In this document: positions 3,303-57,961 of the stretch, one piece after another
Layout of the letters: the number at the start of each line of letters is the position of its first letter
Position numbering within the stretch: the stretch's first letter is position 1
Translations under genes and position numbers: made by a program
Notes under the pieces: model-generated
Database searches by the model: none
Told to the model about the DNA's origin: nothing
The model's input: the letters and a program-made list of their open reading frames with translations, nothing else
NCBI GenBank assembly: GCA_030427635.1
Contig: JAUIBA010000010.1
Coordinates: 62,001 to 126,000 of the forward strand
Direction of reading: 5' to 3'
Source: Bacteroidia bacterium
GTDB lineage: Bacteria > Bacteroidota > Bacteroidia > Chitinophagales > Chitinophagaceae
DNA length: 64,000 bases

Positions 3303-6300
3303 ATGAGAAAGTTATCTGCATTATTTGTTTTGCTCCTGGCTGCGGCAGCAGGAAAAGCACAAACATATTGTACCCCTAATTACCTGAATACATGTAGCAG
3401 TGGTACTCCTATGTATGCAAGCTTTGCATCCTTCGTAGGAGAAGCGGGCTCTTCCATCGTAGACCCTAGTTCCACCTGTTCGCAAGAGTATATCAATAAC
3501 ACTGCGATGTCAGTTACTCTGTATAGAGGAATTACATACACACCATCACTTAATATAACCACCACGTACTATGCAAACTATTCATTTCAGATATGGATAG
3601 ATTATAACGATGATGGTACATTCGCTGCAGGAGAATCTGTAGGCGGGCTGGCTACAATACCCAGCAGTACTACATCGGTATCAATTAATATCCCGGCAGG
3701 GGCTACAACGGGTACTCACAGAATGAGGCTTGTAGGTAACTATAAGTCCTGCTGTGGCGGTGTCACATATCCGTCAATTCCTCCCTGCGTTACCACGTCT
3801 ATTAATTATGGACAGGCGCGTGACTATACTGTGCTGATTACAGATCCGGCGCCCTGCACTACACCTGCGGCACAGCCTACAGCGTTAGGGTTCACATCCT
3901 CATTAAATTCAATAACCGGTTCATTTACTGCCAGTGCATCTGCCAACGCATATCTGGTAGTAATGACAAATACTTCCACACCGCCTACTGCCCCTACCGA
4001 CGGGCAGACGTATACTGTGGGTAGCTCGGCATTGGGTGGAACAATTGTTCATTCCAGTGGAGCTACGTCATTCACTGCTACCGGGCTTACGGACAATACA
4101 ACTTATTACTTCTGGGTTTATGCTATGAATGCAGGATGTATCGGCACACCTCCGCTCTACCTTGCTACCACACCTCTGAGTGGCTCTACAGCTACACAGC
4201 CATGTTCTTTCACTGGTCCTAAAACGATAGGTCCCGGTGGTGATTATGCTACGATTGCATCGGCTGTGACTGCTATTAATACACAGGGTTTGGGCGTCAA
4301 TGCCAGTCTGGAAATTCTGCCATCCTACACTTCAGAAAGCTTCCCTGTCAATATCACATCATTGACATGTGCGAGTGCAGACAGGCGTCTTATCATACGC
4401 CCTCACTCCAGTAATGGCAGTACCAAGAGCATCACTTCATCTGTGACCAATGCAATAATAAGTATGAATGGTGCCAGGTATGTGACCATTGATGGTCGTA
4501 TCAACTCTACGGGCAGTACCAGCCGGCTTACTATTACCAATAGCTATACCAGTACATCTTCATCGGCCAGCACACTGCAGTTTATTAATGGCGCTTCAGA
4601 CAACATCGTACGTTACGTAACATTACAGGGTTCTGGACGCAGTACGGCAAGTGGTATAGTTAAGTTTACTACCTCAACAGCAACAACCGGTAATAACAAT
4701 AACAAGCTGGAGTACTGCAATATTACGGCCAATGGTTCCAGTTATCCATATAATGCCATCTACTCTGCGGGCACTACAGGAAAAGATAACAGCTTTGACA
4801 CAATCTCCAATTGTAATATAAGTAACTATTATTACACTTCAGGCACTACACATGGTATCTACATTGCTTCTGGTAATACTGACTGGAACATATCTTCCAA
4901 CAGGCTTTTTCAAACAGCTAACAGGTCATACTCTGCTTCTGTTGCACATTATGGTATCAGAATTGCCAGTACAAATGGTAATAACTTCCGCGTAGCAGAC
5001 AATATTATAGGCGCTCTGAATGCTTCAGGTACGGGTACCTGCTCTCTTACCGTGTCTTCTACGTCATACAGTATGACCTTCCGGGCTATCTCCATGCAGG
5101 TAGGTGCTATCACACCTTCTTCGGTACAGGGTAATACGGTAACAAATCTTGTGTCATATGGTGGTTCGTCGTCAGCAGGTCTATATGGTATTGAGCTCTT
5201 AGCGGGTAGTAACAATGTAGGTACTGAGTCTGGTAACGTAATCGGCTCTCAGACTACTCTCGGTGCACTTAAACGTGTGGCCAGCAGTAATGGGTCAGTA
5301 GGTATGTATGGTATATATTCCAGTGTGTCAACGCCGGGTGTAACAAACATTTCCAATAATACTATCGGCTGTATCTCCCTGAATGGCACATCTACCAGTA
5401 TCGGCTGTAGCATGTATGGTATATACGCTACAGGAACTGCCGCTACTACCATATCAGGCAATGTAATAGGTAGTAACACACTTGCAGGAAGTATCAGTAC
5501 TGCGGTAACCACATCCGGTGCAAACCGTTTTTACGGTATATATACAACCATATCCAGTTCTTCGCCGTCTCCGGTTGCTATTACGGATAACATTATAGCC
5601 AATATTACGACATCGGGATATAGTACCAGCTCTACCAATATTATGAGGGGTATTTATCATACAGGTACAGCTGCTGCCCATATGGAGCGCAATCATGTAC
5701 ATCATCTGAGTTCCGGCAGCCGCTATTCAGGCACTACTACTACATGGGCCATGGCCGCTATTTCCTATAATGGTTCTACGGGTTCTGCTATCATACATCA
5801 GAATACGGTAAACGCCCTGTCTCTTACTAATAGCACATCTGTTTCTCAGAGTGTGGCAGGTATATACCTTACGTCGTCGCTGAATGGTACTATTTCTTCA
5901 AACAGGGTATATGATATCTCCAATGCATCTACCTATACAAGTACCACAACACCGGCACGTGCAGCAGGTATTATCTGTTATTCTCCCAACACCAGTGTAA
6001 CGATACTGAATAATATGATATCCCTGGGTACAGGCCAGACAAAGAATACTGCTTACAATGGTATAATGGCCGGTGCAAACGGATCATATACCATGAGGGT
6101 ATATCATAACAGTGTATATATAGGAGGTAATGTAAGCTCCGGCAGTGTGGCAACAGCCTGTTTCCACAGAGGGTACTACAGCAGCTCTTCGGTGACATCT
6201 ACTACAGTAGATATAAAAAACAACATCTTTGTCAATGCGCGAACGGGGGGCAGTAATAATCACTACGCGATAGCTAACTGTATAAATTATTCTGCCTCTA

Positions 6301-9300
6301 CTACCGGGTGGCCGGGAGGTGCCAGTAACTACAATATTCTTAACTCTGCCAATGCCTCTACCCTCGGCTATTGGTCAGGTAACAGAACTTTTGCATCATG
6401 GAAGACAGCCATGTCGCCCAATCAGGATTTAAATTCATTCTCTGCTACTACGGTCACCTTTGCCAATACGACAACGGGCGACCTGCATATTAACATGGGA
6501 ACAACTCCCAATGATATAGAATCACATGGCAATACATTAAGTGGTTATACCACCGATTATGATGGTGATACCCGTCCTGGCCCCACAGGTTCCGTGAATG
6601 GTGGTGCAGGCGCTGCTGACATAGGTGCAGATGAATTTGACGGTGTGGCAAATGATAATATTCCACCGGCTATTACATACACAGTGAATGGTTGTCATAC
6701 TAATACTGACTATGTATTCACTGCTCAGATATCTGACCCCGGAGGTGTAGCTACAGGTTCCTTTGCGCCACGTGTATATTTCCGTAAGGGGGCTGCATCA
6801 TATACCAGCTCACAGGGTACTCTGGTGTCAGGAACCACGCTGAATGGTGTATGGTCATTTACTGTTTCTGCTAGTGCCATGGGCGGACTTACAACAGGAA
6901 ATTCTGTTAGCTATTATGTCATTGCACAGGATGCCGCAGGTTATGTAGGTTCTAACACCAACATCAGTCTCAATGCATCAAATGTAAACACAGTGACTAC
7001 GCACCCTACTAACCCTGCTACATTCAGTATCGGGTTAGGCGGTACCTATACTGTAGGTAGTGGAGGTAACTATACCACACTTACATCGGCAGTAGCGGCA
7101 TACAATGCCTACTGCCTTACAGGGCCGGTAGTATTTAGTCTTATAACATCTACATATCCCAGCGAAAGCTACCCGATACAGATTAACAACAATATATGGG
7201 CCAGCAGTACGAATACGCTTACTATACAGCCGGCAGCAGGAGTAAATGCCTCTATTTCTGCCTCGGTATCGTCTTATGCCCCCATCAGGCTGTATGGAGC
7301 AAAACATGTCATCATCGATGGCCTCAAATCGGGAGGTAGCAGTCTCTCCATCACTAATACATACACCAGTACTTCAGCAGTAGTACTGCTGAGCTCTCTG
7401 GGTACAAATAATGGCTGTAGAAATGTTACACTGAAAAATCTGAATCTGACTGGTGGTTCCAATACTTCTTCTGGTGTATATGGTATCTGCGCTACCAGCA
7501 CTACTTCGGCGTCCACAGCATCTTCTTATGACCATGATACTATTACAATAGAGGGAAATACAATTCAGCGTGTTTACTATGGTATTTCTGCGTACAGTGC
7601 CACCACTGCATCTACAGGATATAACGACTGGGTAATACAGAATAACATTATTGGTCCATCTACCTATAATACAACTACAAATGTTTACTACAGAGGTATA
7701 TATCTGACAAACATGCAGAGGACTACCATCAAGGGAAATACTATCAATAACATTGGTATTACCAGCAATTCTACCCAGGCTGTAGGTATATTTTTTAACT
7801 CTGGTATGAATGGATATACTATAGATAGCAACACTATAAAGAATATTGGAGCTAACTATGCCACTACATCTGTTACAGGTGCCATATGTGGTATATATAT
7901 AGGCTCATCCTGTATAAATGGTAAAATACGTGGCAATACCATATCAAATATTGCCAACTATTATACGAGCTCTTCAGGCAGTGTAAAAGGAATATATCTA
8001 TACACAGGTACATCAGTATCTAATATTGAGATATCAAACAATATGATTTCTGATGTCCGTCATTATGGTACCTATACATCCACCACGGGTTATCCCGCGG
8101 GTATTGCCCTGGCCAGTAGTAATGGTATGGTTAGGATATACCATAATACGGTGATGATGGATGCTACCACTGGTGGTAATGCGTCTACACGCTCTGCCTG
8201 CCTTGCGGTATATTCTGCAGCGGGCCCGATAGATGTGCGGAACAATATATTTATCAATAAGTATAATAATGCAGCATCCTCATCAGATAGGGGTTATACA
8301 TTCTATACCTCTGTGTCTAACACTTATTTTTCTAATCTTGACTATAATAACTACTATGCAGAGTCGCCCAGTATAGTTGCATATACCAGTGGTGACAGGA
8401 CTACACTGTCAGACTTCCAGTCGGCATACGGAAGTAATGCTAATAGTGTCAGTATAGCGGCAGAGTGTACTTCATCTTCCGATCTCCACCTTACAACAGC
8501 ATCAATAAACTCATCTATGCAGATGGGTACTCCGCTGGCAGATGTCACAAAAGACATTGATGGAGAAACGAGAAATGGTACGAATCCTACCATAGGTGCC
8601 GATGAAATTGCCACGTGTACTGTTACCGCAGGCACTGTGAATCCGGCAGTTGGTACATTCTGTGGTTCCGGTACTACTACCGTAACTGCTACGGGCGCTT
8701 CTACTGACGGACTGATGCAATGGCGTTCGTCCACTGATAGTACTAACTGGACTACTATTGCCGGTGCTACTGCCAGCAGTTATGTCATTTCACCATCTAT
8801 TACTACTACTACGTGGTACAGGTTTGTGAACAAATGTGCATCCTCTTCAGAAGCTGATTCAGCAGTAACCAAAGTTGTTATCAATCCACTACCAGCTGCT
8901 ATTACTGGTCAGCAGGTGTTGTGCGTAGGTGGCAACTCTACACTGAGTACAGTAACCGCAGGCGGTACATGGTCTACATCAGATGCGGGAGTAGCTAGTA
9001 TTAATGCTACTTCAGGGCTGGTATCGGCCAATGGTGCGGGTACTGCTACTATATCTTATACAATTACTGCTACCGGTTGTGTACGTACTACCGTTGTTAC
9101 CGTGAATGCATTGCCAACAGTAGCGTCTGTTTCCGCTTCTGATAATGGGTTCTGCGTAGGTACTGCAGTAACATTTACTGCAGGTAGTGTTACGGGTACC
9201 GGTTCTGTTCAGTCTTACAACTGGAGCGGTCCTAACTCATTCAGCACTACCAGCGCAGGCAACAGTACGGGGTTAACAACCTCTACTACTGCACAGTCAG

Positions 9301-12300
9301 GTAACTATTCTGTAACTGTTACCTACCCAGGTGCGGGCTGTACCAGTGCTATGGCGGTTACCAGTCCGGCGGTTACGGTGAATGCACTACCTACCGTTGC
9401 TTCGGTATCATCGTCTACCAATAATCTTTGTATCGGTGCAGGGGTTACATTAACAGCAGGTGCTACTACAGGTGCAGGCGCTCTTACTTCTTATAACTGG
9501 ACAGGACCAAATGGTTTCAGCACTACAACAGCTGCTGACAATACAAACTTTACAACCACTACCACTGCACAGTCAGGCAACTATTCTGTGACTGTTACGT
9601 ATCCTGGTACAGGCTGTACCAGCTCTGCTGCGGTTACCAGTCCGGCAGTCACAGTAAACGCATTGCCTACCGTGGCAGGTATCACACCTTCAGCTAGTGA
9701 ACTTTGTATAGGTGGTGCAGTAACATTTACCGCAGGTGCAGTAACAGGTTCCGGTACACTTACCTCTTATAACTGGTCAGGCCCCAATTCGTTCAGCACT
9801 ACTACCTCGGCTAATACTACCGGCTTTACTACATCAGCTACTGCTGAGAGTGGTGCATATACGGTAAGTGTCACTTATCCGGGTGATGGCTGTACAAGTG
9901 CTGCGGTGGTTACCAGCCCGGCGGTAACGGTAAATGCAGTGCCTACTGTAGCCAGCATTACACCATCATCTACTAATCTCTGTGTGGGAACTGCACTGAA
10001 CTTTACTGCAGGTGCAGTGACAGGTGCAGGTACACTCACATCATATAACTGGACTGGTCCCAACTCATACAGTACTACTACTGCCGGAAATACTACCGCA
10101 TTTACAACGGCAGCTGCTGCAGAGAGTGGTGCTTATTCAGTATCGGTAACATATAGCGGTGTAGGATGTACCAGCTCTATGGTGCAGACCAGCCCGGCGG
10201 TAACAGTAAATGCCCTGCCTACAGTAGCATCTGTTGCTGCTTCTACCAGCAATGTTTGTGTGGGTACTGGTATCACATTTACAGCCGGTGCAGTAAATGG
10301 TACAGGTACACTTACATCTTATAACTGGACAGGCCCTAACGCCTTCAGCACCACTACTGCTGCTAATACTACAGGGTTCACAACCAGCACTACAGCAGAA
10401 AGCGGTGCATACTCTGTTACTGTTACCTATCCTGGCGATGGCTGTACCAGCACAATGGCGGTAACCAGCCCCGCAGTAACAGTAAATGCCCTGCCTACTG
10501 TAGCTTCCATTACGCCGTCTCAGACAGAACTCTGTACGGGTAATGCAATTACATTTACTGCGGGTGCGGTATCTGGTGCCGGCACACTTACATCTTACAA
10601 CTGGAGTGGTCCTAACTCATTCAGCACCACTACTGCTGCAAATACAACAGGATTTACAACCAGCACAACGGCAGAAAGCGGTACTTATTCACTGTCTGTA
10701 ACATATCCAGGCAATGGCTGTACCAGCACTACGGTAGTTACCAGCCCTGCTGTCACAGTTAACCCGGCACCTACGGTAGCATCCATCACGGCATCTACCA
10801 GCAATCTGTGTGTGGGTACTGGTATTACATTTACAGCAGGTGCTACTACAGGTACCGGCGCGCTTACATCATATAACTGGACTGGTCCTAACTCGTTTAG
10901 CACTACTACTGCTACCAATACCGTAGGATTTACAACATCTACTCCTGCCGAAAGCGGTGCTTATTCAGTAAGTGTCACTTATGCAGGTGCCGGATGTAAC
11001 AGCCCTGTGGTTGCAACATCACCAGCGGTAACAGTAAATGCACTGCCTACAGTAGCATCTGTAACACCGTCAGAAACTGATATGTGTATTGGTGCGGCGG
11101 TAACATTTACTGCTGGTGCAGTAACCGGTGCAGGTACGCTTACTTCTTACAACTGGAGTGGCCCTAATGCATTCAGCACTACTACTGGCGCCAATACTAC
11201 AGGATTTACAACCAGCACTACTGCTCAGAGCGGCGCTTACTCACTGTCTGTTACCTATCCCGGCGATGGCTGTACCAGCAGTACGGTTGTAACCAGCCCT
11301 GCGGTTACGGTTAACCCTGTACCAACAGTGTCATCTATATCAGCTTCTACCAGCAACCTGTGTGTGGGTACCGGAATTACATTTACTGCCGGTGCAGTAA
11401 CCGGTGCCGGTACGCTTACATCTTACAACTGGAGCGGTCCTAACTCGTTCAGTACTACCACTGCTGCCAATACTACCGGCTTTACAGCCGCTACTACAGC
11501 AGAGAGTGGTGCTTACTCTGTAAGTGTTACTTATACAGGACTGGGTTGTAACAGCTCAACTGTTGTTACTTCACCAGAGGTTACAGTTAATGCACTGCCA
11601 ACGGTAGCATCTATAACGCCATCTACTACAGAAATATGTACCGGAACAGCGCTTTCATTTACAGCAGGTGCTGCTACAGGTGCCGGTACGCTTTCATCTT
11701 ACAACTGGAGCGGCCCTGATGGCTACTCCGCAGTTACAGCAATTGACAATGCTTCATTCACACCTGCTGCTACAGCAGCCAGTGGTAACTACTCTGTAAC
11801 GGTTACTTATCCGGGTTCGGGTTGTACCAGTGCTGCGGCTGTTACCAGCCCTGCAGTTACAGTTAATGCACTCCCATCGCTTACATCTGTATCTGCGCTG
11901 CCTGCTTCACTTTGTGAGCAGCAGGAGCTTACGCTTACAGCTACAGGCGCTACGGGTACCGGCTCGCTTACTTCTTATAACTGGAGCGGCCCCGCAGGCT
12001 ACTCATCATCTACCACTGGTGCCACACAGACATATACGGTGCCTGCTACTACAGCCAGTGGCTCATACAGTGTATCCGTAACATATCAGGGTACAGGTTG
12101 TACCAGCACTCAGGTAGCATCTTCTGCCGTTACAGTAAATGCACTGCCGATAGCGTACGAAGTAAATGGCGGCGGTACCTATTGTGCAGGCGGTGGCGGA
12201 CTCGTAGTAGGGCTTGATGGCTCTCAGACGGGTGTGGAATATCAGTTGTATCTGGATGGTACTCCTACCGGAGCTCCTGTAGCAGGTACCGGCTCAGCTA

Positions 12301-15300
12301 TAGATTTCGGTTCTCAGGTGCCGGCAGGCACTTATACGGTACATGCCGTAAATACTACTACCGGTTGTCAGCAGGATATGAACGGAAGCTCTTTCGTAAT
12401 AGTAAGTGCTACGCCTACTATCTATGCAGTAACAGGTGGCGGTACATATTGTGAAAACACCGGTGGTCTGCATGTAGGTGTGTCATCCTCAAACGTAGGT
12501 GTGAGCTACCAGTTGTACCGCGATGGTACGCCGGTAGGGTCACTGGTGGTAGGTGATGGCAGCCCTGTAGATATGGGTGCACAGATAGATCCGGGTACCT
12601 ATACTATAGTAGGTAATCCAGGTACCGCATGTGAGCGTACCATGACGGGAAGCGCAGTAATAATAATGCACCCCGCTCCTAACGTATATGATGTGAGCGG
12701 TGGTGGTACAATATGTAATGGTGATGCCGGTGTACACATTAACCTGAGCTGGTCGGTACTGGGTATCAACTACCAGCTTTATAATGGTGCTGTAACATAT
12801 GGCGCTCCGGTAGCGGGTTCTTCTTCAGCTCTGGATCTGGGTCTGGCAAATGCAGCGGGTACTTATACCGTACTGGCTACCAATGCCACTACAGGTTGTA
12901 TGAGCGATATGAACGGCAGTGCCACAGTAATAGTTAATCCATTACCTACAGCATATACGGTAACAGGTGGCGGCACTACATGCAGCGGCACTGGTGCAGT
13001 TTCAGTAGGTCTGGATAATTCAGATGTGAATATGAGCTACCAGCTCTATAATGGCGCAACGGCTACCGGTACCGCAGTAGCGGGCAGCGGTGCAGCTATT
13101 ACATTCGGCTCACAGAATGTAACTGGTGTTTACAGTGTAATAGCTACCAATACTATTACGGGTTGCGTTGGTCCTATGAATAGCTCAGTTGTCGTAAGCA
13201 TCAATCCTGCTCCGGTTCCATATACGGTAGTAGGTGGTGGCGCATATTGTCAGGGTGAGGCTGGCCTCACAGTTGGCATGGCTGCTACCAATGTAGGTGT
13301 ACTTTATCAGCTGTATAATGGTGCGGCTACCGTGGGCAGCGCCATCGCAGGTACAGGAGCGGCTATCAGCTTCGGTACGCAGACGGCGTCAGGAACTTAC
13401 TCTGTACTGGGTACTAATATGCTTACTTCCTGCTCTGGTTCTATGAGTGGTTCTGTAGATATTGTTATTAATCCGCAGCCTACAGTATATAATGTAAGCG
13501 GTGGCGGTCATTATTGCAGTGGCGATGGTGGCATGCCTGTTACACTTTCATTCTCTTCTTCTGCTATCAGCTATCAGCTGTACAGAGGTTCTGTAGCTGT
13601 TGGTGCTGCTGTTACCGGTACCGGCGATGCGCTGGACTTTGGTAACCAGACTATTGCTGGCACTTACTCGGTAATGGCTACCAATACAGGTACCGGCTGT
13701 ACTGCCGATATGAGCGGTACTGCAACAGTTGTGGAAAATCCGCTTCCTGTAGCTTACTCAGTAACGGGTGGTGGCAGCTACTGCGCCGGTGGTACTGGTG
13801 TTGCAGTAGGTCTTGGCAGCTCACAGAGCGGTGTAAACTATCAGTTATATAATGGTGCAGCGGCTATAGGTACTCCTGTGGCAGGTAATGGCAGTGCTAT
13901 ATCGTTTGGTATGCAGGGTGCAGCGGGTACTTACACCGTACGCGCTACCAATGCTGTTTCTACTTGCTCCAGCGTAATGAATGGCTCTGCAACGGTAACA
14001 GTAAATACACTGCCTACCCAGTACGTAGTATCGGGTGGTGGTCATTACTGTGCAGGCGGCACTGGCGTAGAGGTAACTCTTATAGGCTCAGAGCCAGGTG
14101 TCACTTATCAGTTGTATAACGGTGCTACTGCAGTAGGTACTGCTATCTCAGGTACCGGTACCGATATCAGCTTCGGTATGGTTACCACAGTAGGCTCTTA
14201 CTCTGTTATGGCTACTAATGTATCCACATCGTGCAGCAGCAACATGTTCGGCTCTGTAGCCGTATATGCCGATCCGCTTCCTGATGCATTTGCAGTAACC
14301 GGTGGTGGTAACTACTGTGCAGGTGGTTCAGGTGTGGCTGTAGGTATGGCCTCATCGGCTACAGGTATCAGCTATCAGCTTTATAATGGTGCCGCTCCTG
14401 TGGGTAGTGCAGTGGCAGGCACTGGCCTGGCCATCACATTCGGCTCTCAGACAGCTTCAGGTACTTATACCGTACTGGCTACAAACAGTGTTACCGGCTG
14501 TACCAATGCTATGGTAGGAAATGCTGTAGTAGGTACTAATCCGCTCCCTGTTCAGTACAATGTTACCGGCGGCGGTACTTACTGTGAAGGTGGTGCTGGT
14601 GTTGCTGTAGGCCTTGCAGGCTCCAACACTGGTATCAGTTATCAGTTATATAATGGTGCTACTGCACTGGGCAGCCCTGTGGCTGGTACCGGCAGTGCCC
14701 TTGATTTTGGCAATCAGATACTTGGAGGTTCTTATACTGTAATGGCTACTAATACAACTACTTCATGTGCCCGTGCTATGACCAGCAGTGCAGTGATAGT
14801 GGTTAACCCTGCTCCGCTTACTTATGCAGTTACCGGCGGTGGTCAGTACTGCAGCGGTGGTAGTGGAGTTACTGTAGGCCTTGCAGGTTCTCAGATAGGT
14901 ATTACTTATCAGCTTTATAATGGCGCAGCTACAGCTGGCGCTCCGGTTACAGGTTCCGGCACTACGCTCAGCTTCGGTACATTTGGTGCAGCAGGTACTT
15001 ATACAGTACTGGGTACGCACAATGGTACCGGTTGTACTGCTGCTATGAGTGGCGATGCAGCGGTTGTTATCAATCCGCTGCCTGTAGCTTATAATATGAC
15101 CGGTGGCGGTGGCTACTGCGTAGGCGGTACTGGTGTTGCCATGGGCGTTGCTTCATCGCAGACAGGCGTTAACTACCAGCTATACAGAGGTGTTGATGTT
15201 GTAGGTAGCCCTGTAGCAGGTACAGGAGCTGCTATCAGCTTCGGTCTGCAGACGGTAGGCGGTGTATACTCTGTATTGGCTACCGATGCTACTACAACGT

Positions 15301-18300
15301 GTACCAACGCTATGTCTACAACCGCATCGGTTGTTATTAATTCTCTGCCTGTTGTTTACACTGTTACCGGTGGTGGTAACTACTGTGCAGGCAGCGCCGG
15401 TGCTCATGTAGGTCTTGAGTCTTCTGAGCCTGGTGTAAACTATCAGTTGTATCTCGGCTCAGATGCTGTGGGCAGCCCAATGCCAGGCTCTGGTGCCGGT
15501 CTTGATTTTGGTGAAATGTACACTATCGGTACTTACTCTGTAGCTGCAGCAAACGCTATAACAGGTTGCGCATCACAGATGTCAGGTACTGCCAGTGTAA
15601 TGGTTTATACGCCACCGGCTGCATTTACAGTTACAGGTGGTGGCAGCTACTGTGCCGATGGTGCAGGTGTTGCTGTTGGGCTCAGTGGCTCGCAGAGTGG
15701 TGTTAACTATACACTTTATGCGGGTACTTCAGTCGCAGGTACAATGGTTGCAGGTACAGGTTCCGATATCAGCTTCGGCTCTCAGATGGTGGCAGGTACT
15801 TATACCGTTCGTGCTACAGGAGCATCATCCGGCTGCGAAGCTGGTATGACAGGTACAGCTACAGTAGTTATCAATCCGCTTCCTGCTACGTTCAGCGTTA
15901 CGGGTGGTGGTAGCTTCTGTGCCGGTGGTACAGGTGTTGATGTAGGTCTGTCAGGTTCTGCATCCGGCGTTACATATCAGTTATATATGGGTAGCACACC
16001 GGTAGGAGGTACTATAATGGGTACTGGTAGCCCGCTCAGCATGGGTCTTCAGACGGGTGTTGGCTCTTACTCTGCAGTAGCTACAAATCTCCTTACAGGT
16101 TGTGTAAGCAACATGACGGGTGCAGCCAGCGTATCTCAGTTGCCTCAGCCTACAGCATATACAGTTACGGGCGGTGGCTCTTACTGTAATGGCGGCAGCG
16201 GTGTTGCTGTTGGCCTCAGCGGTTCTCAGCCAGGCGTTTCTTACCAGTTGTATAATGGTTCATCAGTTGCAGCTACTGCATCTGGTACCGGTTCTCCTCT
16301 GAACTTCGGTCTGCAGACATCCGGTGGCTCTTACACCGTGACTGCTACCAATACCAGCACAGGCTGTACCAACGATATGACAGGTACCGTATCTGTAGCT
16401 GTTAATGCACTGCCTACGGTTTACCTCACTACAGGTGGTGGTAACTATTGTGCAGGTGGCAGTGGCTATGCTGTAGTACTTAATGGCTCTCAGACTGGTA
16501 TCAACTATGAGCTCTACCGCGACAATGTACCGGTAGGTATGACCATAGCTGGTACAGGCATGTTCCTTGATTTTGGTCTGCAGTCGGTAGCCGGCTTCTA
16601 CACAGTTAAGGCAAATAACCCTGCTACAGGCTGTGTACGCACTATGGCAGGCACTCCTGAAATTGTGGTTCATCCGCTGCCAGGTGTATTCACTGTTATA
16701 GGCGGTGGTAACTACTGTGCTGGTGGTGCAGGCGTAGAGGTAGCTCTTTCCGGCTCATCATCTGCAATTGATTATCGTCTTTATAATGGTTCTACTCCGG
16801 TAAGTGCATTTGTATCAGGTAGCGGTTCTATACTGTCATTCGGTGCACAGACTACAGCAGGCACCTACTCTGTACAGGCAGTAAATCCTGCTACCGGTTG
16901 TACTAATTATATGTCAGGAGCAGTAACAGTAGTAATAGATGCAGTTCCTGCAGCATATGAAGTTACCGGTGGTGGTGGTTACTGCGCTGGTGGCTCTGGT
17001 GTAGCTGTTGGTCTTGCCGGTACTGAAACTGGCGTTAACTATCAGCTGTACCGTAACGGTGTCATGAGCGGTTCTGCAATATCAGGTACCGGTTCTTCAC
17101 TGGACTTCGGTATGATGACTGCTACAGGTACTTATTCTGTAATGGCGGTTAGCGGCACTACTTCCTGCTCATCTTCAATGACAGGCGCTGTAACGGTAAG
17201 TGTTAATCCTATGCCTGTTGTTTACTCTGTAACGGGTGGCGGTAGCTACTGTCAGGGTGATGCAGGTATTCAGGTAGGACTTGCCAACTCTCAGAGTGGT
17301 GTTAACTATACACTTTATAATGGTGCTACTGCTGTAGGTACTATGTCGGGTACAGGTTCAGTACTCACATTTGGTCCTCAGCTGGCAGGCACATATCATG
17401 CAAAGGCTACTGACGCTGCTACTGGTTGCGAAAGCAATATGACAGGCAGTGTAAGTGTGCTGGAAAATCCGCTGCCTGCTGTTTATACAGTTGCTGGTGG
17501 TGGTGCGGTTTGTTCTGGTTCGGCAGGTACTGCAGTTACACTGTCCGGCTCCGATGCTAATGTTACCTACGCACTGTACAGAGACGGTATTGCCACGGGC
17601 GCTACCGTAGCGGGTACAGGTGCTATAGCTTCCTTCGGTCTGCAGAACGTAGCAGGTAGCTATACCGCTAAGGCTACAAGCATGCTTTCCGGTTGTACAT
17701 CAGATATGACAGGCAGCGCCGCTGTATCTGTTAATCCGCTTCCTGTTCAGTTCGCAGTTACAGGCGGTGGTAGCTATTGTGCCGGTGGTGCAGGCGCTGT
17801 AATAGGATTGACAGGTTCTCAGGCAGGTGTTCAGTATCGCCTCTGGCGTAATGGGGTAGCTACTTCAGCATTAGTGAGTGGTACAGGTGGTGTGGTTTCA
17901 TTCGCACCACAGTTCACCGCAGGCAGCTACACAGCTGTTGCTGTAGATGCTGCTACTTCTTGTACTACTAATATGTCAGGTACTACTACCGTATCTGTGA
18001 ATCCTACACCTGTGGTACACACTGTATCTGGTGGCGGTTCACTTTGTCAGGGTGGTGCCGGTGTAAATGTGGTAATGAATACCTCTACTCCGGGTGTGTC
18101 TTACCAGTTGTATAATGGTAGCATGACAGTAGGTACTGCAATTGCAGGTACTGGCAGCGCTATCAACTTCGGTGGTCAGAGCACAGCCGGTACTTATACC
18201 GTACTGGCTACTAATGCAGCTACATCATGTACTTCGGCTATGAGCGGCAGTGCAACGGTTATAGTTAATCCACTTCCTGCAGTTCATGCTGTTACCGGTG

Positions 18301-21300
18301 GTGGTGCATACTGCTCCGGTGGTACTGGTGTACATGTAGGCCTTGCAGGTTCTCAGGCAGGTGTTACTTATCGCCTGTATAAGGGTACAGCAGCGGTAGG
18401 TGCAGCTATCACAGGCACCGGCGATGCAGTTGACTTCGGACCAATAACTGTAGCAGGCACTTACTCTGTACGTGCTACCAATGCATCTACATCGTGCGGT
18501 GCCGCAATGGACGGTACAGCTACCGTACAGATAAATGCGCTGCCACTGGCACAGACAGTTACAGGCGGTGGTGCATATTGTCAGGGTAGTGCTGGCGTTG
18601 CAGTAGGTCTCAGTGGCTCTCAGGCTGGTGTTACTTATTCGCTTTACAATGGCAGCACAGCAGTTGCTACAGCATCGGGCACCGGCGATATCATTATGTT
18701 CGGTGTGTATAGTACTACTGGTACTTATTCAGTTTCAGCAGTTAATACTACTACAGGTTGCACCAGCAGCATGACAGGCACTGTGCCGGTTATGGTCAAT
18801 ACGCTGCCTTCAGTTTATGCTGTGGCAGGTGGTGGCAGCTACTGCGCCGGTGGTAATGGTGTTGCGGTAAGCCTCTCTGGTTCTCAGTCAGGTGTTAACT
18901 ACAATATCTACCGCGATGGTGCTATGGTTAGCACGGTAGCTGGTTCAGGAGCATCGCTTGCACTGGGTATATTCACAGCCGCCGGTTCTTACTCGGTAGC
19001 TGCGGTCAACAGCAGTACTGGTTGTACGGCTCCAATGGCAGGTGCAGCAACTGTGGTAGTTAATCCTAAACCAATTGTTTATACAGTTTCTTCAGGTGGG
19101 GCTTATTGCTCTGGCGAAGAAGGAATAGAAGTGGCGCTGAATGGTTCTGAAGCAGGTATCATGTATCAGCTGTACAAAGGCACAGCGGTGTCCGGTGGCG
19201 CTGTAGCAGGTACAGGTTCTGCTATCAGCTTCGGTAGTCGCGCGGCAGGTGTTTATTCTGTAATAGCTACCAATGCTGCTACAGCCTGCACGCAGTCGAT
19301 GACTGGTGCAGCTACAATAGTAATGAACGCTCTGCCTGTTACTTATAATGTTACTGGTGGTGGTGGTTACTGTGAAGGTGGTAGCGGCAAGGCGGTTGGC
19401 CTCAGCGGCTCTCAGGCTGGTATAGCTTACACGCTTTATAATGGTGCAGTTGCTACAGGCACACCGGTAATAGGTACAGGTAGCGCCATCAGCTTTGGCA
19501 ATCAGCCTGTAGGTAATTATACCGTAATGGCAGAAAGCTTCGCTACGGGCTGTACCCGTGCTATGACAGGCGCAGCCACAGTTTACAACTTCGCTCAGCC
19601 GGTGGCGTTCGGAGTTGCTGGTGGTGGTAACTACTGTGCCGGTGGTAATGGTGTAGGTGTTATGCTCAATGGCTCTCAGTCGGGTATCAGCTATCGTCTG
19701 TACAGAGATGGAGCTATGGTAGGTACTCCTGTTAGTGGTACTGGTTCTTCGCTCACATTTGGTATGTATACGGCGGCAGGTGCTTATACAGTTAAAGCTA
19801 CAGATATGGTTACTGGTTGTGCCGGTGATATGACAGGTAGTGTTTCTGTAGGTATCAATGCGCTGCCTGTTGCTCAAACAGTTACAGGTGGCGGTAGCTA
19901 TTGTTCTGGTGGTACTGGTGTTGCTGTTGGTCTCTCAGGTTCTGATGCCGGTATCAGCTATCAGCTGTACAATGGCAGCACAGCATCGGGCGATGCTGTT
20001 GCAGGTACAGGTAGCGCACTCAGCTTTGGCAACCGTGCCGATGCAGGTACTTACCGTGTTGTAGCTACAGATGAGACTACAATGTGTACATCTGAGATGA
20101 ACAGTACCGTGAATGTGGCTATCAATCCACTGCCTGCAGTATACGTACTTGCAGCAGGTAGCGGTTCATACTGCGCAGGTGGTGCAGGCGTTCAGGTTAC
20201 ACTCAGCAATTCACAGTCAGGAGTTTCTTACCAGCTGTATCATGATGGTGCTGCTACAGGTAGCGCTGTTTCCGGTGCGTCTGGCAATGGTCTGAACTTT
20301 GGTATGCATACAGCTACAGGTAGCTACTCTGTAATGGCTACAGACCTTACTACAGGTTGTATGGCAGCTATGACAGGTATGCCTTCAGTTGCTGTTAATC
20401 CGCTCCCTGCTCAGTACACAGTTACTGGTGGTGGTAGCTACTGTGCCGATGATGCTGGTGTGGTTGTTGGCCTCAGCGGTTCTCAGCTGGGTATCAGCTA
20501 CAGACTTTATAAAGGTACAGGCGTAGTTGGCGCAGCGGTGTCAGGTACAGGTGCTGCTCTTGATTTTGGTATACAGACAGGTGGTAACTATACAGTTCGT
20601 GCTGTAAATGCAGCTACTGGTTGTATGAGCAATATGACAGGTGCTGCATCAGTAGTGGTTAATGCGCTCCCTGCTGTAGCATCTGTTACAGGTGGTGGTC
20701 AGTTCTGTGCCGATGGTGCTGGCGTTCACGTAGGTCTTACGGCTTCGTCATCAGATGTTCAGTATCAGCTCTATAACGGTGCTGATATGGCAGGCACTGC
20801 ATTGAATGGTAACGGTGGCGCACTTGATTTCGGTCTGCTTACTTCAGCTGGTACTTATACGGTGCATGCTACCAACGTACTCACAGGTTGTGCTGCTGGT
20901 ATGACGGGTGCAGCTACAGTAGTAGTTAATGCTACACCGGTTGCGCAGTCAGTATCAGGTGGCGGTGCGCTCTGTGTGGGTGCTGCGGGTGTTAATATAG
21001 TTCTTGATGGCTCTGAAGCAGGCATCAGTTATCGTCTCTACAATGGTACAGAGGCAGTAGGCGCATGGGTTAGTGGTACAGGTTCAGGCATCAGCTTCCC
21101 TGCTACTACTACAGCCGGCACTTACTCTGTAACGGCAATGAATGCAGCTACTGGTTGTGCTGCTGCTATGAGTGGTACTGCCGATGTTATTGTTAACAAT
21201 CCTCCTGCTGCATTTGTGGTTACCGGTGGTGGTGCATACTGTGCCGGTGGCGATGGTCTTGCAGTAGGCCTCAGTGCTTCAGCATCGGGTGTTAACTACA

Positions 21301-22556
21301 CATTGTATCGCGATGGTTCTATGGTTACATCAGTAAGCGGCACCGGCGGTCTTATTAACTTCGGTCTGCAGACGCTCGCTGGCTCTTATGCTGTAACAGC
21401 TACAGATGCAGCTTCAGGATGTATGCGCAATATGACAGGTACAGTATCTGTAAGCGTTACTCCTGGCGTTACTCCGGTTGTTACACTAACCAGCTCGGCC
21501 GATGCGGTTTGTGCAGGTACACTGGTTACATACACTACCAGCCAGACAAATGGCGGTACAGCTCCTGCTTATCAGTGGAAGGTGAATGGTGATAATGTAG
21601 CGGTAACTACCAGCACATACAGCTATATCCCTGCCAATGGAGATGTGGTAAGTGTAGAAATGACCAGCAACGCAGTTTGTGTTACTTCACCGGTAGCTAC
21701 AGCATCACGTACAATGGTGGTGAACGCCGGCCAGACACCTGTAGTTACGGCTACACTGTCATCAGGTAGTGATACTATCTGTAACGGTACACCGGTTACA
21801 TTCTCTGCCGTTGCAGAGTTCGGTGGTGACGCTCCTGTGTTTGAGTGGATTAAGAATGGCTCGGTATCTACTACCGGTACTTCATTCACTTATACACCTG
21901 CCGATGGCGACGTGATTTACTGCCGCCTCACCAGCAACTATGAGTGCCGTACTACTGCACTGGTAAGCAGTGAGTCTACGCTGCTGCATGTTATGAGTCA
22001 GATAGCGCCTGCTGTTACAATCGTGGCAGACCCGGGCACCAGCATCGCTCAGGGCCAGTCTCTGAAGCTGACTGCTGTAGCTACTAACACATATATGCCT
22101 ACATACCAGTGGTACATAAATGGTGCAGCTATACACAACGCTACCAGCACTGTATTTAACTACAGCAGCTATCAGGATGGTGATTCTGTAGTATGCCGTG
22201 TGGTAAACAATACACCTTGCGGTGAGTTCGATGTGTTCAGCTCAGTTGTTGTTAACGTAAGCAGTGTGAGTGTTAATACCGTACCATCAGTATCATTCGA
22301 TGTGCGTCTGATGCCTAACCCTACTACAGGTCACTTCGTAATCACTGGTGCGGTAAGCAATACCGTGAATGGTTCTGTGAACATTGAGGTTGCTAACATG
22401 CTGGGTCAGATTGTGTACCGTGGTGCTGCCGATGTGAAAGGCGGTAACATAAACGCAGCTGTTACACTGGATGCAGGCCTCTCTAACGGAATGTATCTGG
22501 TTAATCTGCGCTCAGGCAATGATGCCCGTGTGTTCCATGTAGTACTGGATCGTTAA
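3303..22556 (+). CDS. Giant modular T9SS-secreted adhesin-like protein (6417 aa)
   Basis: A single uninterrupted frame of 6417 codons. Modules in order: signal peptide (residues 1-19, ending GKAQ); GEVED-type domain (about 60-183; IDYNDDGTF and GQARDYTVLI); FnIII-like domain (about 186-298); right-handed beta-helix region 1 (about 300-1110, ending DIGADEFDG); a linker domain; beta-helix region 2 (about 1246-1766); an Ig-like and a Big2-like domain; 11 tandem repeats of about 92 residues (1939-2949); 35 tandem repeats of about 89 residues (2950 to about 6056); three Ig-like domains (about 6056-6320); and a T9SS type A sorting domain (about 6321-6417; LMPNPTTGHF...). It is probably exported across the outer membrane and anchored or released at the surface as a very long fibre for adhesion. 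Length is comparable to Flavobacterium SprB, but the sorting domain is type A. No catalytic motif was seen. Adhesion is inferred from architecture. No neighbouring gene appears co-transcribed. Confidence 0.93.
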   Translation: MRKLSALFVLLLAAAAGKAQTYCTPNYLNTCSSGTPMYASFASFVGEAGSSIVDPSSTCSQEYINNTAMSVTLYRGITYTPSLNITTTYYANYSFQIWIDYNDDGTFAAGESVGGLATIPSSTTSVSINIPAGATTGTHRMRLVGNYKSCCGGVTYPSIPPCVTTSINYGQARDYTVLITDPAPCTTPAAQPTALGFTSSLNSITGSFTASASANAYLVVMTNTSTPPTAPTDGQTYTVGSSALGGTIVHSSGATSFTATGLTDNTTYYFWVYAMNAGCIGTPPLYLATTPLSGSTATQPCSFTGPKTIGPGGDYATIASAVTAINTQGLGVNASLEILPSYTSESFPVNITSLTCASADRRLIIRPHSSNGSTKSITSSVTNAIISMNGARYVTIDGRINSTGSTSRLTITNSYTSTSSSASTLQFINGASDNIVRYVTLQGSGRSTASGIVKFTTSTATTGNNNNKLEYCNITANGSSYPYNAIYSAGTTGKDNSFDTISNCNISNYYYTSGTTHGIYIASGNTDWNISSNRLFQTANRSYSASVAHYGIRIASTNGNNFRVADNIIGALNASGTGTCSLTVSSTSYSMTFRAISMQVGAITPSSVQGNTVTNLVSYGGSSSAGLYGIELLAGSNNVGTESGNVIGSQTTLGALKRVASSNGSVGMYGIYSSVSTPGVTNISNNTIGCISLNGTSTSIGCSMYGIYATGTAATTISGNVIGSNTLAGSISTAVTTSGANRFYGIYTTISSSSPSPVAITDNIIANITTSGYSTSSTNIMRGIYHTGTAAAHMERNHVHHLSSGSRYSGTTTTWAMAAISYNGSTGSAIIHQNTVNALSLTNSTSVSQSVAGIYLTSSLNGTISSNRVYDISNASTYTSTTTPARAAGIICYSPNTSVTILNNMISLGTGQTKNTAYNGIMAGANGSYTMRVYHNSVYIGGNVSSGSVATACFHRGYYSSSSVTSTTVDIKNNIFVNARTGGSNNHYAIANCINYSASTTGWPGGASNYNILNSANASTLGYWSGNRTFASWKTAMSPNQDLNSFSATTVTFANTTTGDLHINMGTTPNDIESHGNTLSGYTTDYDGDTRPGPTGSVNGGAGAADIGADEFDGVANDNIPPAITYTVNGCHTNTDYVFTAQISDPGGVATGSFAPRVYFRKGAASYTSSQGTLVSGTTLNGVWSFTVSASAMGGLTTGNSVSYYVIAQDAAGYVGSNTNISLNASNVNTVTTHPTNPATFSIGLGGTYTVGSGGNYTTLTSAVAAYNAYCLTGPVVFSLITSTYPSESYPIQINNNIWASSTNTLTIQPAAGVNASISASVSSYAPIRLYGAKHVIIDGLKSGGSSLSITNTYTSTSAVVLLSSLGTNNGCRNVTLKNLNLTGGSNTSSGVYGICATSTTSASTASSYDHDTITIEGNTIQRVYYGISAYSATTASTGYNDWVIQNNIIGPSTYNTTTNVYYRGIYLTNMQRTTIKGNTINNIGITSNSTQAVGIFFNSGMNGYTIDSNTIKNIGANYATTSVTGAICGIYIGSSCINGKIRGNTISNIANYYTSSSGSVKGIYLYTGTSVSNIEISNNMISDVRHYGTYTSTTGYPAGIALASSNGMVRIYHNTVMMDATTGGNASTRSACLAVYSAAGPIDVRNNIFINKYNNAASSSDRGYTFYTSVSNTYFSNLDYNNYYAESPSIVAYTSGDRTTLSDFQSAYGSNANSVSIAAECTSSSDLHLTTASINSSMQMGTPLADVTKDIDGETRNGTNPTIGADEIATCTVTAGTVNPAVGTFCGSGTTTVTATGASTDGLMQWRSSTDSTNWTTIAGATASSYVISPSITTTTWYRFVNKCASSSEADSAVTKVVINPLPAAITGQQVLCVGGNSTLSTVTAGGTWSTSDAGVASINATSGLVSANGAGTATISYTITATGCVRTTVVTVNALPTVASVSASDNGFCVGTAVTFTAGSVTGTGSVQSYNWSGPNSFSTTSAGNSTGLTTSTTAQSGNYSVTVTYPGAGCTSAMAVTSPAVTVNALPTVASVSSSTNNLCIGAGVTLTAGATTGAGALTSYNWTGPNGFSTTTAADNTNFTTTTTAQSGNYSVTVTYPGTGCTSSAAVTSPAVTVNALPTVAGITPSASELCIGGAVTFTAGAVTGSGTLTSYNWSGPNSFSTTTSANTTGFTTSATAESGAYTVSVTYPGDGCTSAAVVTSPAVTVNAVPTVASITPSSTNLCVGTALNFTAGAVTGAGTLTSYNWTGPNSYSTTTAGNTTAFTTAAAAESGAYSVSVTYSGVGCTSSMVQTSPAVTVNALPTVASVAASTSNVCVGTGITFTAGAVNGTGTLTSYNWTGPNAFSTTTAANTTGFTTSTTAESGAYSVTVTYPGDGCTSTMAVTSPAVTVNALPTVASITPSQTELCTGNAITFTAGAVSGAGTLTSYNWSGPNSFSTTTAANTTGFTTSTTAESGTYSLSVTYPGNGCTSTTVVTSPAVTVNPAPTVASITASTSNLCVGTGITFTAGATTGTGALTSYNWTGPNSFSTTTATNTVGFTTSTPAESGAYSVSVTYAGAGCNSPVVATSPAVTVNALPTVASVTPSETDMCIGAAVTFTAGAVTGAGTLTSYNWSGPNAFSTTTGANTTGFTTSTTAQSGAYSLSVTYPGDGCTSSTVVTSPAVTVNPVPTVSSISASTSNLCVGTGITFTAGAVTGAGTLTSYNWSGPNSFSTTTAANTTGFTAATTAESGAYSVSVTYTGLGCNSSTVVTSPEVTVNALPTVASITPSTTEICTGTALSFTAGAATGAGTLSSYNWSGPDGYSAVTAIDNASFTPAATAASGNYSVTVTYPGSGCTSAAAVTSPAVTVNALPSLTSVSALPASLCEQQELTLTATGATGTGSLTSYNWSGPAGYSSSTTGATQTYTVPATTASGSYSVSVTYQGTGCTSTQVASSAVTVNALPIAYEVNGGGTYCAGGGGLVVGLDGSQTGVEYQLYLDGTPTGAPVAGTGSAIDFGSQVPAGTYTVHAVNTTTGCQQDMNGSSFVIVSATPTIYAVTGGGTYCENTGGLHVGVSSSNVGVSYQLYRDGTPVGSLVVGDGSPVDMGAQIDPGTYTIVGNPGTACERTMTGSAVIIMHPAPNVYDVSGGGTICNGDAGVHINLSWSVLGINYQLYNGAVTYGAPVAGSSSALDLGLANAAGTYTVLATNATTGCMSDMNGSATVIVNPLPTAYTVTGGGTTCSGTGAVSVGLDNSDVNMSYQLYNGATATGTAVAGSGAAITFGSQNVTGVYSVIATNTITGCVGPMNSSVVVSINPAPVPYTVVGGGAYCQGEAGLTVGMAATNVGVLYQLYNGAATVGSAIAGTGAAISFGTQTASGTYSVLGTNMLTSCSGSMSGSVDIVINPQPTVYNVSGGGHYCSGDGGMPVTLSFSSSAISYQLYRGSVAVGAAVTGTGDALDFGNQTIAGTYSVMATNTGTGCTADMSGTATVVENPLPVAYSVTGGGSYCAGGTGVAVGLGSSQSGVNYQLYNGAAAIGTPVAGNGSAISFGMQGAAGTYTVRATNAVSTCSSVMNGSATVTVNTLPTQYVVSGGGHYCAGGTGVEVTLIGSEPGVTYQLYNGATAVGTAISGTGTDISFGMVTTVGSYSVMATNVSTSCSSNMFGSVAVYADPLPDAFAVTGGGNYCAGGSGVAVGMASSATGISYQLYNGAAPVGSAVAGTGLAITFGSQTASGTYTVLATNSVTGCTNAMVGNAVVGTNPLPVQYNVTGGGTYCEGGAGVAVGLAGSNTGISYQLYNGATALGSPVAGTGSALDFGNQILGGSYTVMATNTTTSCARAMTSSAVIVVNPAPLTYAVTGGGQYCSGGSGVTVGLAGSQIGITYQLYNGAATAGAPVTGSGTTLSFGTFGAAGTYTVLGTHNGTGCTAAMSGDAAVVINPLPVAYNMTGGGGYCVGGTGVAMGVASSQTGVNYQLYRGVDVVGSPVAGTGAAISFGLQTVGGVYSVLATDATTTCTNAMSTTASVVINSLPVVYTVTGGGNYCAGSAGAHVGLESSEPGVNYQLYLGSDAVGSPMPGSGAGLDFGEMYTIGTYSVAAANAITGCASQMSGTASVMVYTPPAAFTVTGGGSYCADGAGVAVGLSGSQSGVNYTLYAGTSVAGTMVAGTGSDISFGSQMVAGTYTVRATGASSGCEAGMTGTATVVINPLPATFSVTGGGSFCAGGTGVDVGLSGSASGVTYQLYMGSTPVGGTIMGTGSPLSMGLQTGVGSYSAVATNLLTGCVSNMTGAASVSQLPQPTAYTVTGGGSYCNGGSGVAVGLSGSQPGVSYQLYNGSSVAATASGTGSPLNFGLQTSGGSYTVTATNTSTGCTNDMTGTVSVAVNALPTVYLTTGGGNYCAGGSGYAVVLNGSQTGINYELYRDNVPVGMTIAGTGMFLDFGLQSVAGFYTVKANNPATGCVRTMAGTPEIVVHPLPGVFTVIGGGNYCAGGAGVEVALSGSSSAIDYRLYNGSTPVSAFVSGSGSILSFGAQTTAGTYSVQAVNPATGCTNYMSGAVTVVIDAVPAAYEVTGGGGYCAGGSGVAVGLAGTETGVNYQLYRNGVMSGSAISGTGSSLDFGMMTATGTYSVMAVSGTTSCSSSMTGAVTVSVNPMPVVYSVTGGGSYCQGDAGIQVGLANSQSGVNYTLYNGATAVGTMSGTGSVLTFGPQLAGTYHAKATDAATGCESNMTGSVSVLENPLPAVYTVAGGGAVCSGSAGTAVTLSGSDANVTYALYRDGIATGATVAGTGAIASFGLQNVAGSYTAKATSMLSGCTSDMTGSAAVSVNPLPVQFAVTGGGSYCAGGAGAVIGLTGSQAGVQYRLWRNGVATSALVSGTGGVVSFAPQFTAGSYTAVAVDAATSCTTNMSGTTTVSVNPTPVVHTVSGGGSLCQGGAGVNVVMNTSTPGVSYQLYNGSMTVGTAIAGTGSAINFGGQSTAGTYTVLATNAATSCTSAMSGSATVIVNPLPAVHAVTGGGAYCSGGTGVHVGLAGSQAGVTYRLYKGTAAVGAAITGTGDAVDFGPITVAGTYSVRATNASTSCGAAMDGTATVQINALPLAQTVTGGGAYCQGSAGVAVGLSGSQAGVTYSLYNGSTAVATASGTGDIIMFGVYSTTGTYSVSAVNTTTGCTSSMTGTVPVMVNTLPSVYAVAGGGSYCAGGNGVAVSLSGSQSGVNYNIYRDGAMVSTVAGSGASLALGIFTAAGSYSVAAVNSSTGCTAPMAGAATVVVNPKPIVYTVSSGGAYCSGEEGIEVALNGSEAGIMYQLYKGTAVSGGAVAGTGSAISFGSRAAGVYSVIATNAATACTQSMTGAATIVMNALPVTYNVTGGGGYCEGGSGKAVGLSGSQAGIAYTLYNGAVATGTPVIGTGSAISFGNQPVGNYTVMAESFATGCTRAMTGAATVYNFAQPVAFGVAGGGNYCAGGNGVGVMLNGSQSGISYRLYRDGAMVGTPVSGTGSSLTFGMYTAAGAYTVKATDMVTGCAGDMTGSVSVGINALPVAQTVTGGGSYCSGGTGVAVGLSGSDAGISYQLYNGSTASGDAVAGTGSALSFGNRADAGTYRVVATDETTMCTSEMNSTVNVAINPLPAVYVLAAGSGSYCAGGAGVQVTLSNSQSGVSYQLYHDGAATGSAVSGASGNGLNFGMHTATGSYSVMATDLTTGCMAAMTGMPSVAVNPLPAQYTVTGGGSYCADDAGVVVGLSGSQLGISYRLYKGTGVVGAAVSGTGAALDFGIQTGGNYTVRAVNAATGCMSNMTGAASVVVNALPAVASVTGGGQFCADGAGVHVGLTASSSDVQYQLYNGADMAGTALNGNGGALDFGLLTSAGTYTVHATNVLTGCAAGMTGAATVVVNATPVAQSVSGGGALCVGAAGVNIVLDGSEAGISYRLYNGTEAVGAWVSGTGSGISFPATTTAGTYSVTAMNAATGCAAAMSGTADVIVNNPPAAFVVTGGGAYCAGGDGLAVGLSASASGVNYTLYRDGSMVTSVSGTGGLINFGLQTLAGSYAVTATDAASGCMRNMTGTVSVSVTPGVTPVVTLTSSADAVCAGTLVTYTTSQTNGGTAPAYQWKVNGDNVAVTTSTYSYIPANGDVVSVEMTSNAVCVTSPVATASRTMVVNAGQTPVVTATLSSGSDTICNGTPVTFSAVAEFGGDAPVFEWIKNGSVSTTGTSFTYTPADGDVIYCRLTSNYECRTTALVSSESTLLHVMSQIAPAVTIVADPGTSIAQGQSLKLTAVATNTYMPTYQWYINGAAIHNATSTVFNYSSYQDGDSVVCRVVNNTPCGEFDVFSSVVVNVSSVSVNTVPSVSFDVRLMPNPTTGHFVITGAVSNTVNGSVNIEVANMLGQIVYRGAADVKGGNINAAVTLDAGLSNGMYLVNLRSGNDARVFHVVLDR
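4206..6632 (+). other. Beta-helix region 1 of the giant protein
   Basis: It opens with GPKTIGPGGDYATIASAV and continues as short turns such as 'N.I.N....GIY' repeated through the segment (GIYIASGN, YGIYSS, YGIYAT, RGIYHT). It ends with GAADIGADEFDG, a common end signature of secreted parallel beta-helix proteins in Bacteroidota. The folds are inferred from the turn pattern. Confidence 0.75.
7030..8602 (+). other. Beta-helix region 2 of the giant protein
   Basis: A second, shorter copy of the same layout: entry motif GTYTVGSGGNYTTLTSAV, internal turns (GISAYS, RGIYLT, CGIYIG, KGIYLY), exit motif TIGADEIATC. It is clearly related to region 1, but the internal turns are too diverged to be a recent duplicate. 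Confidence 0.75.
9117..12149 (+). repeat. Tandem array A: 11 Ig-like repeats of about 276 bp
   Basis: Eleven in-frame copies; 3033 bp divided by 11 gives 276 bp (92 aa). The consensus runs: TVAS(V/I), x4-6, (L/V/I/M)C(V/I/T)G, TFTAGAVTG, GTLTSYNW(S/T)GPN, FSTTTAANTTGFTT, AESGAYSVSVTYPG, GCTS, VVTSPAVTVNALP. Each copy has two Cys (near the start and in GCTS) that could form a disulfide. Copies 5-10 alternate between two subtypes. Copy 11 is the most diverged (SLTSVSALPASLCEQQE). Confidence 0.95.
12150..21470 (+). repeat. Tandem array B: 35 repeats of about 266 bp
   Basis: Thirty-five in-frame copies counted by hand, mean about 266 bp (89 aa). Consensus: (V/T)GGG.YCAGG.GVAVGLSGSQ, then GV.YQLYNG, VAGTGS...FG.QT.AGTYTV.ATN, TGC...M.G.ATV.VNPLP. 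The Cys in YC and the Cys in TGC/TSC are kept in every copy I read, suggesting one disulfide per domain. Several copies are one or a few residues shorter (20, 27, 28, 32), and copy 31 has a small insertion. Copies are more diverged from each other than in array A. Confidence 0.95.
21471..22553 (+). other. Three Ig-like domains plus type A sorting domain at the C-terminus of the giant protein
   Basis: Three stretches of 85-90 residues start with TPVVTLTSS, TPVVTATLSS and APAVTIVADPG. Each carries a central W (YQWKVNG, FEWIKNG, YQWYING) and a late VEMTSNAVC / CRLTSNYEC / CRVVNNTPC strand. The last about 95 residues (LMPNPTTGHF, ANMLGQIVY, SNGMYLVNLRSG) match the T9SS type A sorting domain. Confidence 0.85.
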
Positions 22557-22580
22557 TTGTCGATTAATTTGTATAATGTA

Positions 22581-57936: not shown

Positions 57937-57961
57937 CCGGACTCTTGTGTTCTGTTTATTG

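Follow-up and report, generated by a model that had tools for sequence, protein, structure and literature searches.

A predicted 6417-residue protein with tandem Ig-like repeats and a type A T9SS sorting domain in a Chitinophagaceae genome, and its apparent family of giant relatives

The window analysed here is a 64,000-nucleotide stretch of a Bacteroidia bacterium genome of the family Chitinophagaceae (GCA_030427635.1, contig JAUIBA010000010.1, positions 62,001 to 126,000), and near its left end lies a giant gene (3303–22556, + strand) coding for a protein of 6417 residues (633 kDa, predicted pI 4.7). The frame runs from an ATG to a TAA with zero internal stops, as in the original prediction of a single unbroken gene, and profile searches and repeat mapping confirm the order of modules that it proposed, with a GEVED domain, an FnIII-like stretch and two beta-helix regions followed by 46 repeats and a type A end. 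By eye, the translation starts with a signal-peptide-like N-terminus (MRKLSALFVLLLAAAAGKAQ; 3303–3362, +). Misassembly is unlikely, since exact internal repeats of at least 30 nt are absent from the giant gene and no 31-mer is common to the window and 20 other stretches of the same genome. The lack of such internal repeats, together with a dN/dS of ~0.31 between repeats and an orthologue with a matching 35-repeat array (see below), argues at the sequence level that this is a maintained gene, not a chance frame.

Upstream is a gene for a DUF6252 protein that is weakly Riean_0653-like (2484–3020, +), and directly downstream is an arginase/agmatinase-family gene (22641–23687, +; the ATG start at 22641 was picked by eye), with a terminator-like hairpin and T run between it and the giant gene (22579–22612, +; also a by-eye reading). 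Neither of the two upstream neighbours is found near five orthologues at E ≤ 1e-5. The arginase-family gene is present in two of the four orthologues with downstream flank, directly following the giant gene in G011 and G012, and is absent from the downstream flanks of L115/G022 and L067. There are no tRNAs in the window, and a Bacteroidetes promoter consensus pattern has zero matches in the window where 1.4 are expected by chance.

The GEVED domain (aa 95–177; 3585–3833, +) scores 58.9 bits in Pfam against a cut-off of 24.4, and the FnIII-like stretch (aa 235–281; 4005–4145, +) gives an fn3 match of 24.6 bits, just under the cut-off of 25. The first beta-helix-like region (about aa 300–1120; 4200–6662, +) was modelled with AlphaFold2 from five orthologous sequences over 830 residues (pTM 0.80, mean pLDDT 75); the final 134 of these residues, past about aa 991, have pLDDT below 50, and the model-backed extent of the beta-helix is about aa 296–990. 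The second region (about aa 1240–1774; 7020–8624, +) is a BLASTP relative of the first (28% over 455 columns, E 1e-11), which suggests that the two are related and that the second is also beta-helix-like. The pair of beta-helices originally predicted thus stands for the first region on a structural model and for the second on kinship to the first. The head is followed by two single Ig-like domains (about aa 1770–1936; 8610–9110, +), with an Ig_7 match of 14.8 bits (cut-off 27.3) and an Ig_NUP210_16th match of 30.8 bits (cut-off 27).

Foldseek comparison of the first head region returns weak, fold-level PDB matches to PL6 alginate lyase, lacto-N-biosidase, tailspikes and the adhesin PfbA, and the viral matches include an EPS-depolymerase. 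Query TM-scores are 0.10–0.27, and a single match is at E < 0.001 among the best 50 matches listed, so that no function is readable from them; at the sequence level, the best PDB match of the giant protein has an E of 0.026, and no PDB relative was found. These matches nonetheless raise the prospect of a surface-tethered polysaccharide-active enzyme, in which one or both beta-helices would be lyases or glycosidases on a stalk. One paralogue carries a metallophosphatase head, and RGI_lyase (PF18370, a lyase beta-sheet domain) reaches 46.1 bits against a cut-off of 27.8 inside the repeat array. However, the structural matches have very low TM-scores, neither beta-helix region matches a Pfam family at E ≤ 0.1, and the RGI_lyase score, for which no single stretch passes, is a sum over weak Ig-like repeats and is not taken as a lyase. 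A tethered enzyme is, in our view, rather unlikely. DotD, FAD_binding_5, Filamin and Ig_2 exceed their cut-offs in the same scan of long stretches by similar summing, and were rejected for the same reason.

The central part of the protein consists of 11 tandem 92-aa PKD/Ig-like repeats (aa 1937–2947; 9111–12143, +) and 35 tandem 89-aa Ig_7-like repeats (aa 2948–6055; 12144–21467, +), giving the 46 that had been counted beforehand; a TRF array (9159–11709) lies inside the 92-aa region. Every repeat in both arrays (35 of 89 aa and 11 of 92 aa) has exactly two cysteines, and a disulfide in each bead is therefore likely from composition. The 92-aa array has no Lys or Arg, and there are nine Lys in the 3108 residues of the 89-aa array, a scarcity by which Lys-based isopeptide cross-links appear nearly excluded. 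When the repeats are scanned singly, PKD_6 (PF19408) matches 10 of the 11 92-aa repeats at E ≤ 0.01; repeat 1 scores 20.1 bits against a gathering threshold of 25, and the long stretch holding the array scores 85 bits. Ig_7 (PF19081), described as an 'Ig-like domain CHU_C associated', was left unlisted for the 89-aa array by the Pfam scan of long stretches, and in the single-repeat scan it matches 27 of the 35 at E ≤ 0.01, with eight not matching (repeat 9 has 28.4 bits against a gathering threshold of 27.3). The 89-aa repeat is an Ig-like bead of the known Ig_7 kind, here in 35 tandem copies in a type A protein. Of the two descriptions first offered for these repeats, Ig-like holds, and a novel repeat family is ruled out by the 27 single-repeat matches.

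An AlphaFold2 model of repeats 9–10, built on the window's own 34 overlapping pairs, has a mean pLDDT of 97.3 and matches 31 PDB chains at E ≤ 0.001, mostly tandem Ig or FnIII, with query TM-scores of 0.29–0.48 for the pair. Across the 595 pairwise comparisons of 89-aa repeats, median values are 0.48 for dN, 1.48 for dS and, over usable pairs, 0.31 for dN/dS (33 pairs have no usable dS); differences fall at 0.38, 0.33 and 0.59 on codon positions 1, 2 and 3. Mean DNA identity is 57% with a maximum of 66%; with no pair above this and no gain at lags of 1–12, 15, 20 or 25, a recent tandem expansion in this gene is ruled out.

The stalk ends in three Ig-like domains (21468–22286, +) that form a common C-terminal cassette, their single-domain Ig_3 and Ig_7 matches all being below cut-off, and the protein closes with a T9SS type A sorting domain (22299–22553, +). 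Both TIGR04183 (28.9 bits, cut-off 23) and Por_Secre_tail (35.8 bits, cut-off 27) exceed their curated cut-offs, in agreement with the type A end originally assigned, and the giant gene is not among the 27 own-genome matches to the type B C-terminal domain (CTD) model TIGR04131. The genome encodes SprA (2468 bits) and PorV (382 bits), and has at least 150 matches to the type A CTD (with 150 out of 224 candidates scored) and 25 type B matches over cut-off, none of these in a frame longer than 2593 aa. Type A cargo travels via PorV (excerpt of PMC12618676).

Among the closest known systems is SprB, the 669 kDa gliding adhesin of Flavobacterium johnsoniae, which is likewise a highly repetitive T9SS cargo; its length is of the same class, as had been pointed out at the start. 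SprB has a type B CTD, again as first stated, and it binds and needs SprF (PMC9143113, in the part available), whereas the giant protein has a type A CTD and Ig_7 plus PKD-like repeats. SprB also has a cognate PorP/SprF partner, while the two neighbours of the giant gene, DUF6252 and arginase, are not SprF-like. In F. johnsoniae, SprB that was tagged at the native locus and fitted with a type A CTD, from AmyB or from RemA, is secreted; the swaps leave it static or released, with the AmyB version in the medium and the RemA version both anchored and released (excerpt of PMC12618676). A type A cargo of 6400 residues is thus not a new limit, and the implication for a secretion limit that had been drawn from the giant protein was already answered by the export of SprB with a type A signal.

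These results bear on two other roles. The protein could be a gliding adhesin doing the work of SprB in this lineage, to which its size class and an encoded GldJ-like protein (262 bits, under the cut-off of 458) might point; the CTD is type A rather than type B, neither neighbour is PorP/SprF-like, the Pfam scans of the stretches and repeats of the giant protein list no SprB repeat family, and SprB itself becomes static or released once it carries a type A CTD, all of which makes this role very improbable. It could alternatively be a released matrix protein that builds a biofilm or extracellular network, not a cell-bound fibre. Some type A CTDs do lead to release, as for SprB with the AmyB CTD, but the RemA CTD gave anchoring as well (both in the excerpt of PMC12618676), and we consider a released matrix protein unlikely. 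RemA of F. johnsoniae is itself an adhesin that has a lectin domain and a type A CTD (same source), and the giant protein shares its type A route. One paralogue of the giant protein in its own genome also has a lectin-like head. RemA is not known to carry a giant Ig stalk.

A profile of the 89-aa repeat has at least 86 matches in the same genome at at least 20 loci, the window's included (150 of 203 candidates scored). At 16 of the 20 loci the gene has the same end, consisting of an 89-aa repeat, three Ig domains and a type A CTD, although at three of the 16 (L046, L047 and L053) the repeat is seen by the genome-wide repeat-profile search alone. Twelve of these proteins supplied the Ig-tail and CTD profiles and match them by construction; an independent TIGR04183 scan finds a type A CTD at each of the 16. 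Of the other four loci, L044, L045 and L055 have frames that continue past a contig end, and L059 has a CTD but only a weak Ig-tail match. The heads differ and include legume-lectin-like, metallophosphatase, glycine-rich ALK/LTK-like, GEVED and Big_2-array types, among up to 1300 N-terminal residues scanned in 13 of the 20 other stretches, 12 of which have the repeat (12 of the 19 other repeat loci). Judged from these sequences, the giant protein is one of a family of giants with a common end and differing heads; it is not unique, sitting at one of 20 own-genome repeat loci, and it is not the longest in the genus.

One common and one variable end within a single genome is also what might be seen in a polymorphic toxin or contact-dependent weapon. 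Here, however, the common end is the sorting end, the variable N-terminal end carries Ig, lectin, phosphatase and beta-helix modules, and no toxin family is listed for the giant protein or for the scanned heads (up to 1300 residues each), so that a weapon of this kind is extremely improbable. In three pairs of loci (L047/L048, L049/L051 and L052/L058) the last 520–580 C-terminal residues are nearly the same (identities of 99%, 98% and 95% among the pairs), with one or both members at contig ends; such likeness may stem from assembly variants, gene conversion or a recent exchange of ends. In eight of the 20 other own-genome stretches a contig end truncates the longest frame, and the assembly evidently breaks in such giant genes.

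Relatives are widespread in the genus. When the head (aa 188–1775) is the query, 16 of the 35 genus genomes, counting its own, give a match at E ≤ 1e-20; the matches in its own genome, G034, G009, G011, G012, G022 and G015 span nearly the whole head, with the initial 78 query residues missing in G015. In Flavipsychrobacter stenotrophus RB1R16 (L067) the orthologue is 3863 aa long, with 14 repeats and a CTD, and its head matches from residue 230 onwards at 44% identity. Counted from the first Met, the frame is 7176 aa in G011 and 11273 aa (1.10 MDa) in G012, where it has a signal-like start. The G012 frame (contig C10; L141/L140/L156) ends in a type A CTD and holds 33–34 of the 92-aa repeats and 62 of the 89-aa repeats, a count that is possibly wrong because of an exact internal repeat of 800 nt, the longest there; in G011 no exact internal repeat reaches 30 nt. 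Among the matches listed, open frames longer than the window's are those of G012 (11279 aa) and G008 (9551 aa), the latter also with a C-terminal CTD match. The 89-aa repeat occurs at E ≤ 1e-10 in all 35 genus genomes and at E ≤ 1e-20 in 13 of 395 genomes of a phylum draw, its own included, the two rates being unequal measures since fewer candidates (up to 13 per genome) were scored in the phylum draw and at a stricter threshold. Each of the 12 other positive genomes in that draw has one to three matches. A giant Ig stalk with a type A T9SS signal is accordingly a regular, multi-copy trait of the whole genus, with a common anchor end and differing heads. Among the entries listed in searches of the open-access literature, judged by titles and abstract openings, there is no paper on these giants.

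The number of 89-aa repeats is 35 both in the window gene and in that of G011, a different species, and the two arrays correspond by position, repeats on the diagonal being 57.3% identical and those off it 50.5%. Offset 0 has a z of 10.7, the next offset has 1.8, and none of 500 row shuffles reaches it. The order signal belongs to the average and not to every single repeat: 14 of the 35 window repeats and 10 of the 35 G011 repeats find their best partner on the diagonal. Partial order is kept in G009 (z 5.0; cut by a contig end) and G012 (z 4.6), and G012 follows G011 at offset +27 (z 6.8), with a five-repeat unit amplified in G012. As controls for the comparison with G011, the window array shows no positional order against the paralogue L041 (permutation p 0.54) or against G006_C5, which has another head (p 0.32). 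G006_C5 and G011_C56, a pair without a common head, show a weak order signal (p 0.024, offset -2), and weak order is therefore no proof of orthology. For the 92-aa array, conserved order was looked for and not found, with 11 repeats against 8 (over 40 bits) and no offset standing out. The 89-aa array is stable in number and order at a head identity of 49%, and the neighbouring 92-aa array is not. We offer, as a tentative and on balance doubtful suggestion from one species pair, that the 89-aa array may be a molecular ruler and that the genus swaps heads on a length-controlled stalk. Other lineages have longer or shorter stalks, and one assembly predicts a T9SS cargo of 11,273 residues and 1.1 MDa; if the ruler suggestion is true, there would be natural type A cargo well beyond SprB. 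The orthologues form a natural series of 7, 14, 35, 35 and, with the caveat on its count, 62 repeats, which allows tests of stalk length, T9SS capacity and reach.

We lean towards the giant protein being a fibrillar surface adhesin that takes the PorV route and has a beta-helix head on a long Ig stalk. Its observed basis is the anatomy, the models of one bead pair and of most of one head domain, the type A signal, the SprA and PorV genes, the orthologues and the gene family, from which we infer secretion, disulfides, extension and adhesion as function. The protein would be exported by Sec through its signal peptide, passed across the outer membrane by SprA and collected by PorV through its C-terminal sorting domain, to be anchored on, or shed from, the surface. 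The N-terminal head, with GEVED, FnIII-like and two beta-helix regions, would be the putative ligand-binding part, and the stalk would comprise about 51 Ig-like beads (2 + 11 + 35 + 3) with a probable disulfide in each of the 46 tandem ones. If one Ig-like bead spans about 4 nm, 51 of them would place the head ~200 nm from the cell. The type A CTD, the SprA and PorV genes, the tandem Ig-like model, the cysteine pairs and the common end with differing heads all favour this reading, as does the weak likeness of the head fold to glycan-handling beta-helices and the adhesin PfbA. A beta-helix head can also belong to an enzyme, which counts against adhesion, and type A cargo can be released, which counts against anchoring (excerpt of PMC12618676). 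Apilactobacillus Giant1–4 are described as having a similar plan, in which a giant elongated protein carries a beta-solenoid head (excerpt of PMC12863079), and this also favours the reading.

Other giant repetitive surface proteins include the RTX adhesins MpAFP and SiiE and the Mobiluncus adhesin with 51 Ig-like domains (PMC4083281, PMC6272769, PMC10619420, each in part), and the Apilactobacillus Giant1–5 proteins are giant or beta-solenoid-headed (PMC12863079, likewise). The window protein differs from all of these in having Lys-poor, two-Cys beads and a T9SS signal. The RTX adhesins, the Mobiluncus adhesin and the Apilactobacillus giants use other secretion routes and anchors.

Elsewhere in the window there are three further features of note. 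A reverse-strand gene (34883–38551) encodes a protein of 1222 aa that carries a CHU_C, type B T9SS signal as well as Ig_7 and Big_2 domains, and with the type A giant, both CTD types are thus present in the window. Three adjacent reverse-strand genes of ~470 aa (56364–61038) each finish with a type A sorting domain that passes its cut-off, match no further family above threshold, and probably represent a tandem cluster. A forward-strand gene (30643–32523) encodes an Nramp metal transporter fused to a universal stress protein domain.
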